A stretch of 64,000 bases of DNA from Neptunicella marina. Lineage in GTDB: Bacteria; Pseudomonadota; Gammaproteobacteria; Enterobacterales; Alteromonadaceae. The translations under genes were made by a program, and so were the position numbers. The stretch lies in the NCBI RefSeq assembly GCF_014270035.1, contig NZ_JACNEP010000001.1, forward strand, positions 62,001-126,000, in the 5' to 3' direction. The notes below the pieces were generated by a model. The model did no database searches. It was not told the DNA's origin and worked only from the letters and a program-made list of their open reading frames with translations. This document shows positions 39,224 to 41,976 of this stretch, piece by piece (positions within the stretch are counted from its first letter, which is position 1; each line of letters starts with the position of its first letter).

Positions 39224-39297
39224 TCGGTCTGTATCAAACGTATGTCACTGATATTTCCGTTACACCAATAACAATATTTAAGGAAAACCTGCGCACT

Positions 39298-41976
39298 ATG
39301 CCTATCACAAAATTATTACAGCTGTTTGCTTTAACGATGTTTTCAGTCGTTTGTATTGCGCAGCCGAATGAAGCAAAAGTAATAGATGCCGTTGTGAATA
39401 TTCACGTTAATCAGGTCCGGGCCTGGGACGATAGCTACAATAACGCCACCCTGGGGACGGGTTTTGTTATTGATGCAGAGCAGGGACTCATTTTAAGCAA
39501 TAAACATATTGTCGAAACCGGTCCCGTTGTCGCATATGCCGAATTTTCCAATAAAAAACAAATTGAACTTATTCCAATCTACCGCGACCCGGTACATGAT
39601 TTTGGTGTATTCAAATACGATCCCGATGAACTTGATGGGCTGATCATCAGTGCTATTGAATTAAACAGCGAAGCAAGCGTGGGTTCACCTATTCGTTTAT
39701 ATGGCAATGACGGGGGGGAAGATTTATCCATTATTGAAGGGGTATTATCACGAATTGACCGCCCCGCCCCGGATTACCGCAATACCAATACCGACTTTAA
39801 TACCTTTTATTATCAGGCGGCACTGGGAAGTAGCGGTGGCTCATCTGGTTCGCCCATTTTAAACAGTGAAAATCAGGCAATCGCAATTAATGCCGGTGCC
39901 CGTCGGGATGCCGACACGGCTTTTTTTCTGCCGATGCAGATGATTATTCCCACTGTAGAAAAACTAAGACACCAGCGAAAGGTAACGCGCGGCACATTGC
40001 AAACTGAATTTTCGCATACCCCGTTTAATCGTCTGCGTACGCTGGGAATGGACGAAGATACCGTAAACCAGCAAATGAAACGCGCCCCAGGTTCTACCGG
40101 CAAGTTAGTTGTATCGCATGTGTTGCCTCAGGGGCCTGCCGATGGTGTGTTTGAGCCGGGTGATATTTTACTCAGTATTAATTTGGTGCCGGTTTCAACT
40201 TTTTTCGAACTTGAAACCCTGTTAAATGGTCATGTTAACAAAACAATCAGTGTCAGTTTTTATCGTAACGGCGATAAAATGCAACGCGAAATTAAAGTTA
40301 ATGACCTGTTTGCTCTGACGCCCAGTGAGTTTATCGAATATGGAAATGCCAGTATCATTCCTGTTGGCATCAACTTAGCGCGTCTGTTTAATATTCCCGT
40401 AAAAGGCGTAACTCTGGCCGACGCGGGGCCTCTGTTTGGTAGCCAGAACATCAAACGTTTTGCGCTGATTGAAGAAATTAATAATCAGGCAGTGAATGAT
40501 CTGGATGATGTGGAACAACTGCTTAGTAATATTGCTGTTGGGGCCAAATTTAGCGTTAGATACCGTTATCCATTTGATGTTGCCGTTCAACAATATAAAC
40601 AATTAACCGATTACACGGACTGGTTTGATAATCAGCGTTGTAAAAATATAAACGGTGAACGTCACTGGCAATGTAAAACACTGCATAAAAAAGCCAATGC
40701 CGATGGTAAATACCATTTTGACTCCGACAAGGTGGTTACTTCTCCGATTGTGGACATCAATGTTTTCCGCCCGGTACTGGTTAACAGCCAAAATGATGTT
40801 AATCGCCGCGGACAAGGTGCCATAGTAGATAGAAAAGCAGGGTTGATTCTGACCGATAAAAGCGTAATTGACAGTTCGCTGGCAATGGTCAATATCACCT
40901 TTAACAATGGGGTTAGTTTGCCAGCAACGGTTGTTGCAGTGCATCCCTTTTTAAACCTGGCGATGATAAAAACCGACTTATCCGGTGTTACATTTAAAGA
41001 GAACATTCTGCCGGTGCTGGATGATACACAGGCTCAGCCTGGCCAGCCCTATCACTTTATCGGTAAATCATCGATGCTGGATTTTCAAATAAACGCAGCG
41101 GCACTTTGGCCCATTGTGATTTATAACGAGGCCTACCACGATAGCTTTGAATACTCACCTCTTTCAGATAGTTTTGGCTTGTATCTGACTGAAAAACAAA
41201 AGGTTGTCGCTGTAAATACCCATTTTGAATACGACGATTCCAGCATGAATGACATCATCCCTGCCTCACTGGTAATGGACTTTGTTCATGCAGTCAAACG
41301 ACAAAAAGATGGTATGTATATACTCGAAAGTAACTTTAGTTACACCAGTTACGCCGATGCGCTGGAGCTGGGAATTGAGCAGGTAAAAGTTAACAATACC
41401 AGCCGTGTGGTCAGCGTTTATAGTGTGGAATCGTTAGGCGGCAGCAACCTGTTACCGGGTGATATTATTTTAAAAGTGAATGATAAAAGTGTTTCCGCAA
41501 TTAACCAGATATATAACGCCATACATCACCCTGAGGCCACGTTGAGTATTTTACGTAATGGCAAGGTACAAACGGTTGCTGCAAAAGCACGTTTTAAAGA
41601 TTTTAACGCTTTTCATGATGTGGTGTTCTGGGGAGGGGCTGTTATTCATAAAGTAGATGATAAAGTCAACCTGCCAGAAGGTCCGGTGGAAGGCTGCCTG
41701 CGAATTAGCGTATTTTATTTTGGTAGTCCGGTACATAGCTCTGGCATTACCAACGGTAGCTGCATTTACGCGATAGACGGTAAAAAAGTACAAACTATTG
41801 ATGACATTGTGAATATTACCCAGGACAAAGAGGCGGGTGATTACACTCGTGTACAGACTATTGAAATGAATAACAACTTCAGAATTGCGGAGTTTCGTTT
41901 ACGCGAGGACCCTTATTACTGGCCAATAAAACACTGGTCACTTGAAGATAATGGCTGGCAACGCGAAAGTAACTAA
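39298..41976 (+). CDS. Periplasmic tandem trypsin-like protease/PDZ protein, Nma111/Deg7-like
   Basis: The 892-residue protein has a signal peptide (about 1-21). The first protease domain has a full triad: H70 (LSNKHIVE), D101 (YRDPVHDFG) and S183 (GSSGGSSGSPIL). PDZ domains follow (about 260-345 and 365-455). The second protease domain (about 500-680) is degenerate, with LTDKSV for the His motif and no GxSG. Further PDZ regions complete the chain. YRDPVHDFG, GNDGGEDLSIIEGVLSRIDR and the order of domains match yeast Nma111 and plant Deg7, not DegP or DegS. It probably cleaves or holds misfolded envelope proteins. Confidence 0.85.
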   Translation: MPITKLLQLFALTMFSVVCIAQPNEAKVIDAVVNIHVNQVRAWDDSYNNATLGTGFVIDAEQGLILSNKHIVETGPVVAYAEFSNKKQIELIPIYRDPVHDFGVFKYDPDELDGLIISAIELNSEASVGSPIRLYGNDGGEDLSIIEGVLSRIDRPAPDYRNTNTDFNTFYYQAALGSSGGSSGSPILNSENQAIAINAGARRDADTAFFLPMQMIIPTVEKLRHQRKVTRGTLQTEFSHTPFNRLRTLGMDEDTVNQQMKRAPGSTGKLVVSHVLPQGPADGVFEPGDILLSINLVPVSTFFELETLLNGHVNKTISVSFYRNGDKMQREIKVNDLFALTPSEFIEYGNASIIPVGINLARLFNIPVKGVTLADAGPLFGSQNIKRFALIEEINNQAVNDLDDVEQLLSNIAVGAKFSVRYRYPFDVAVQQYKQLTDYTDWFDNQRCKNINGERHWQCKTLHKKANADGKYHFDSDKVVTSPIVDINVFRPVLVNSQNDVNRRGQGAIVDRKAGLILTDKSVIDSSLAMVNITFNNGVSLPATVVAVHPFLNLAMIKTDLSGVTFKENILPVLDDTQAQPGQPYHFIGKSSMLDFQINAAALWPIVIYNEAYHDSFEYSPLSDSFGLYLTEKQKVVAVNTHFEYDDSSMNDIIPASLVMDFVHAVKRQKDGMYILESNFSYTSYADALELGIEQVKVNNTSRVVSVYSVESLGGSNLLPGDIILKVNDKSVSAINQIYNAIHHPEATLSILRNGKVQTVAAKARFKDFNAFHDVVFWGGAVIHKVDDKVNLPEGPVEGCLRISVFYFGSPVHSSGITNGSCIYAIDGKKVQTIDDIVNITQDKEAGDYTRVQTIEMNNNFRIAEFRLREDPYYWPIKHWSLEDNGWQRESN

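Follow-up and report, generated by a model that had tools for sequence, protein, structure and literature searches.

The window, a 64,000-nucleotide stretch of the Neptunicella marina genome, carries on its forward strand a gene for an 892-aa protein with two trypsin-like domains and interleaved PDZ regions; this description, given in an earlier note made from the letters of the DNA, was borne out by the open reading frame, by Pfam and by structure models. Upstream of it, 74 bases away and in the same orientation, lies a DEAD-box helicase gene, the best NCBIfam match of which was SrmB (386 versus a cut-off of 507). The congeneric genome with L140 retained the order helicase-protease-etf, whereas at L009, a relative of the same type, the downstream neighbour was different and the upstream side was a contig end; the order was not found at two loci of the lipoprotein type described below (L142 and L143). 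The features, all on the forward strand, are as follows.

39280..39284 (+), AAGGA, probable ribosome-binding site by its position 13 bases 5′ of the ATG
39298..41976 (+), whole gene of the 892-aa double HtrA protease, ATG start
39298..39357 (+), probable Sec signal peptide, residues 1-20, read by eye; lipobox pattern absent
39379..39993 (+), protease domain 1, catalytic, about residues 28-232 (Pfam, alignment and model)
39505-39507, 39598-39600 and 39844-39846 (+), triad codons H70, D101 and S183 of protease domain 1
39994..40308 (+), PDZ 1, about residues 233-337 (Pfam, model and profile-profile comparison)
40309..40608 (+), PDZ 2, of the PDZ_1 type, with the PF12812 match at residues 339-412
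40639..40674 (+), C448 to C459, invariant cysteine pair (alignment and model), likely forming a disulfide
40735..41313 (+), dead protease domain 2, about residues 480-672, with S522 and N553 and without catalytic Ser
41314..41607 (+), PDZ 3, about residues 673-770 (Pfam, model and profile-profile comparison)
41608..41907 (+), PDZ 4, about residues 771-870, containing C800 and C822, a putative disulfide

Pfam, the model and profile-profile comparison gave the domain order protease-PDZ-PDZ_1-dead protease-PDZ-PDZ. Pfam matches on the protein were Trypsin_2 (83 bits, two stretches), PDZ_2 and PDZ_6 (four stretches each) and PDZ_1 (PF12812, 54.6 bits versus a cut-off of 28), and protease domain 2 was weak by sequence, its separate match having an E of 8.7e-4, under the family cut-off. 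Read by eye, the N-terminus shows the n, h and c regions typical of a signal peptide, in agreement with the earlier note, and a pattern search found no lipobox in the window protein. With the start codons chosen, the best 80 of at least 541 named relatives were 910-969 aa long, compared with 892 aa for the window protein. Plant Deg7 is about 1,000 aa long.

For the active sites, 83 proteins were aligned, namely the best 80 of at least 541 named relatives and three window-type proteins (the window protein, L008 and L009). H70, D101 and S183, which had been proposed as a complete triad, were invariant (83/83), and GGSSGSP was kept in all 83 apart from one S185A. The loss of His and Ser from the second domain was likewise confirmed in this alignment, and the Asp was found to be lost as well: the His position (S522) was Asn in 71, Ser in 9 and another residue in 3 of the 83, the Asp position (N553) was Asn in 83/83, and no G-x-S-G motif was present around residues 619-641. 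The same 83 proteins retained in domain 2 H549 and P550 (83/83) and G627 (82/83), and its mean identity was 65% versus 80% for domain 1 (30 of the 69 common-type proteins). Judged from these residues, domain 2 is catalytically dead yet constrained. Domain 1 was the best conserved part, being 80% identical between the window protein and L008 and 63% between the window protein and L009, whereas protease domain 2 and PDZ 3-4 of the window protein had 21-23% identity to the others, making the second half the most diverged; because of this strong divergence, unit 2 of the window protein may work otherwise.

Profile-profile comparison within the chain matched domain 1 with domain 2 at an E of 4.4e-19, PDZ1 with PDZ3 at 1.3e-19 and PDZ2 with PDZ4 at 9.2e-13, whereas the four cross pairs gave 1.9e-5 or worse. 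Against their DegP counterparts, the values were 7.5e-18 for domain 1, 2.4e-11 for domain 2, 1.2e-15 for PDZ1, 6.9e-15 for PDZ3, 3.8e-10 for PDZ2 and 1.6e-10 for PDZ4. From these values, the whole three-domain unit was doubled, with a wide margin in the case of domain 2 and a narrow one in that of domain 1. The whole-chain model was built from 27 sequences (pLDDT 78.8, pTM 0.77), and its unit 1 matched HtrA structures with Z of about 20-23. Unit 2 modelled alone (pLDDT 77.2) matched HtrA, DegQ and DegP chains with Z of 20.0-21.1 over 334-353 aligned residues, with a large rmsd (9.5-14) for the whole unit and an rmsd of 2.7-3.7 (Z 16.2-16.9) for its protease domain. Thus modelled, unit 2 alone is a full DegP-like unit; protease folds were predicted in both halves, and the outcome with a single protease domain, which the earlier note had named as contrary to its claim, was not seen.

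C448 and C459 were present in 83/83 aligned proteins (the best 80 of at least 541 and the three window-type proteins) and in 79 of these 83 the mature part has no other cysteine. In the whole-chain model they lie on adjacent strands (446-449 and 458-461), and the pair fits the pattern of a periplasmic disulfide. Four cysteines were found in three of the same 83 proteins; the extra ones of the window protein, C800 and C822, are located in the last PDZ domain, and an equivalent pair was read by eye in L008 and L009; a C800-C822 disulfide may be formed in the window branch.

The family profile was made from 33 common-type rows (32 different) and zero window-type rows. It matched the window protein end to end with 686 bits, L008 with 664 and L009 with 557, and it gave 1053 and 1104 bits to two lipoprotein-type rows, compared with 74 for EcDegP, 72 for a second DegP, 54 for EcDegQ, 47.5 for the DegP of N. 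marina itself and 21-35 for three DegS rows. A DegP-type profile gave the window protein 94 bits versus 481-521 for four DegP/DegQ rows. In a unit-1 tree of 39 rows, in which the program flagged the long branch of the one-unit protein L022, a 100/100 branch of length 2.64 parted the Deg7-like rows from DegP/DegQ/DegS, and a quick tree that included one-unit rows likewise placed the window protein outside DegP/DegQ/DegS (100 SH-aLRT). On the basis of the end-to-end profile match and the 100/100 branch, therefore, the window protein is a Deg7/Nma111-type HtrA outside the DegP/DegQ/DegS clade, in agreement with the claim of the earlier note that the likeness to Nma111 and Deg7 extends over the whole chain; the placement within a DegP/DegS clade that would have spoken against it did not appear in the phylogeny of domain 1. 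DegP, DegQ and DegS share with the window protein the HtrA unit, as reflected in the fold match of unit 1, but they have one unit only and scored 21-74 bits with the family profile (seven rows tested).

In a sample of Alteromonadaceae, relatives were detected at E <= 1e-20 in 14 of 118 genomes (own included) and 12 of 52 genera, with one double-protease gene per genome in 14/14, the copy in G004 consisting of two segments in one 975-aa frame. Three were of the window type (the window protein, L008 with 64% and L009 with 42% identity to it) and 11 were of another type, 30-34% identical to the window protein; a lipobox was read by eye in 10 of these 11 (L010-L020). A full or split double protein was present at E <= 1e-40 in 25 of 369 genomes and 19 of 272 genera of the class sample, or about 7% of the class genomes, and the phylum sample gave matches in 5 of 398 genomes, one being a one-unit protein; since two or three candidates were scored per genome in both surveys, absences in them are soft. 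The scan of named genomes yielded at least 541 relatives, and types were read in the best 80, of which 11 were of the lipoprotein type (Thalassotalea, Colwellia, Catenovulum and others) and 69 of the common gammaproteobacterial type (Woeseiaceae, Steroidobacteraceae, Thioalkalivibrio and others). Among the 11 named lipoprotein-type relatives (L023-L033, a set overlapping with L010-L020), a lipobox was found in 7 by the strict pattern and in 9 by eye. As most double proteins of the Alteromonadales type have a lipobox, lipid anchoring is possible for them, in contrast to the window type.

Of 59 sampled family genomes, 11 had a PDZ_1 match above the cut-off, the frame being 900-975 aa long each time; none of 14 control genomes had one, and Bacteroides ihuae alone among them gave a match below the cut-off. 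A 509-aa PDZ_1 frame in G002 turned out on reading to be a 495-aa DegP-like protein. A protein search of a plasmid collection with one common-type member gave no match, and the viral contigs scanned with the family alignment gave 18 pattern matches and zero relatives. In the quick tree that included one-unit rows, the first split was that of the window branch, and the other two types joined at 90; this branching order is not firm, and the 39-row unit-1 tree left it open. The window protein, as its sequence places it, is a member of a small, diverged side branch of the bacterial double family. The double-protease family is not special to N. marina and is not rare in Gammaproteobacteria.

Proteins with a single unit were also found. 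L022 (the same as L174), a 490-aa protein in the small genome G444, matched the first half of the family profile with 170 bits and the DegP profile with 75, and its PDZ_1 score of 15.5 bits was under the cut-off of 28. Within the order of G444, 19 of 131 genomes (own included) matched L022 at E <= 1e-15, and 12 genomes besides G444 did so at E below 1e-80; within its class, 3 of 240 genomes matched the family alignment at E <= 1e-25, in the first half only, absences in this survey being soft as well, with two or three candidates scored per genome. The one-unit open frames at 15 loci (L174-L186, L194 and L195) were 480-563 aa long and had no second unit. In one of the twelve genomes, some stretches shared about 90% identity with plasmids of Candidatus Megaera polyxenophila (Rickettsiales); a second one tested had no such match. 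The order is probably rickettsial. The 100-support branch places the one-unit relatives, like the window protein, with the Deg7-like rows, and they differ from the window protein in their short frames and in the missing second unit. In a tree of units, one-unit proteins, unit 1 and unit 2 shared a 100/100 branch against DegP/DegQ/DegS; unit 1 was joined with the one-unit proteins at 89/82, with a long-branch warning, and in AU tests neither a grouping of unit 1 with unit 2 (p 0.386) nor one of unit 2 with the one-unit proteins (p 0.383) was rejected.

The eukaryotic rows used for comparison were provisional sequences of yeast Nma111 and AtDeg7, so the comparison serves as a lead only. With the bacterial profile the provisional Nma111 scored 869 bits and the provisional AtDeg7 959 bits, both exceeding the window protein. 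Identity to the common type was 35-38% for the provisional Nma111 and 41-44% for the provisional Deg7, that of the two to the lipoprotein type was 31-36% and that to the window type was 24-30% (yeast 24-27%). In trees the provisional rows joined the common type with the window branch outside (97/97; 93 SH-aLRT; long branches flagged). As a lead, the common gammaproteobacterial type seems nearer than the window protein to Deg7/Nma111, and if verified sequences behave alike, the eukaryotic family adjoins the common bacterial type and the window protein is a more distant cousin. The C448/C459 pair is absent from both provisional sequences, and in the provisional Deg7 the dead domain is preceded by a longer linker. 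According to the accessible part of PMC3473262, Deg7 of plants and algae (clade III) resembles the window protein in having the order PD-PDZ-PDZ-inactive PD-PDZ-PDZ with the first triad intact and the second mutated, but it is located in the chloroplast stroma, whereas the window protein is probably exported. Yeast Nma111 (Ynm3) shares PDZ_1, which the available text of PMC5982838 describes in fungal proteins, and differs in being nuclear, as the title of a reference cited there has it. The nearest thing to a description of a bacterial double architecture in the literature searched, as far as the accessible text of the papers goes, was one sentence of PMC5982838, a paper of 2018, stating that some bacterial proteins are closer to the protease of yeast than they are to human HtrA. 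PMC2605481 describes Tryp-PDZ and Tryp-PDZ-PDZ among prokaryotes, the double architecture not being seen in its available portion, and a full-text literature search for three motif strings matched no paper.

Two other origins for the likeness to the eukaryotic enzymes have to be considered. A protein of the DegP/DegQ lineage could have doubled independently and come to resemble Deg7/Nma111 by convergence, which would fit with 1) a best NCBIfam match to the DegP subfamily TIGR02037 (121 bits), 2) a sequence search of solved structures (87 matches at E up to 10) in which the best 60 were all ordinary HtrA, with no Deg7 or Nma111 structure among them, and 3) the closeness of the domain 1 match with DegP to that with domain 2. 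However, the 121 bits are far under the cut-off of 416, TIGR02038 (63 versus 423) and NF008189 (51 versus 720) also fall short, and none of the 15 NCBIfam families listed reached its cut-off on the window protein; with the 100/100 branch against DegP/DegQ/DegS and 686 bits versus 94 for the two profiles, convergence is highly improbable. Acquisition of a eukaryotic Deg7/Nma111 gene by the bacterium, the transfer that the earlier note had offered as one of two origins, has in its favour an overall layout equal to that of the eukaryotic enzymes (available part of PMC3473262). Against it, the family was found in 25 of 369 class genomes and in at least 541 candidate stretches of named genomes, and the provisional eukaryotic rows adjoin the common bacterial type, away from the window protein. 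Since the bacterial family is wide and its cysteine pair, invariant in the 83 proteins (best 80 of at least 541 and three), is absent from the provisional eukaryotic rows, transfer from a eukaryote is not favoured, and we regard it as barely credible. The other origin idea, that of a bacterial lineage related to the ancestor of the eukaryotic family, holds in part only: on its diverged side branch, and with 28-33% identity to the best 80 of at least 541 named relatives, the window protein represents this ancestor poorly.

As many other bacteria carry relatives with the double layout, this layout need not have arisen in eukaryotes. It is possible, although we put it somewhat below even chances, that the doubled Deg7/Nma111 protease was an invention of the bacterial envelope that eukaryotes took over whole, with loss of the export signal and the disulfide and re-targeting to nucleus or plastid; the one-unit cousins would then share this lineage, perhaps preserving the condition that preceded the doubling, and the window branch would be a bacterial side line with an extra disulfide. 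The wide bacterial family makes the origin of Deg7/Nma111 testable by an ordinary tree, and its exported members offer simple models in which to ask what a dead protease domain is retained for; it is the family as a whole, more than the window copy, that is of interest.

As to function, we consider it probable that the window protein is an exported bacterial protease of the Deg7/Nma111 kind, with a tandemly doubled protease-PDZ-PDZ unit of which unit 1 is catalytic and unit 2 dead, and with a role in the envelope. By its N-terminus, read by eye, it would be secreted to the periplasm, where C448-C459 and, in the window branch, C800-C822 would form disulfides. The PDZ domains may bind unfolded or damaged envelope proteins, which unit 1 would cut, and by analogy with Arabidopsis Deg7, the inactive domain of which takes part in trimerisation (accessible part of PMC3473262), the dead unit 2 may serve assembly and perhaps substrate holding. 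The N. marina genome has its own DegP and DegS, so the window protein is an extra protease and would act beside them; envelope protein quality control is its likely function by analogy. That it is mainly a chaperone or scaffold, with proteolysis of little weight, might be argued from the dead protease unit, which makes up half of the chain, and from the chaperone activity of yeast Ynm3/Nma111 mentioned in the available text of PMC4877387; it seems unlikely, given that 83/83 proteins retain the first triad and GGSSGSP (one S185A; best 80 of at least 541 and three) and that conservation is highest in domain 1 (80% to L008, 63% to L009).

Two further frames of the N. marina genome were noticed: L005 (G000:C46:110689-111105), with a Trypsin_2 match of 43 bits, above the cut-off, in a 1919-aa frame, and L003 (G000:C42:123892-124377), a 274-aa Trypsin_2 frame whose branch in the HtrA tree is very long (7.87). 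It was also noticed by eye that the common-type genes (L034-L102, among the best 80 of at least 541) often lie just behind glycine-cleavage-like genes, and a related upstream gene was present at 54 of the 80 loci (the best 80 of at least 541).
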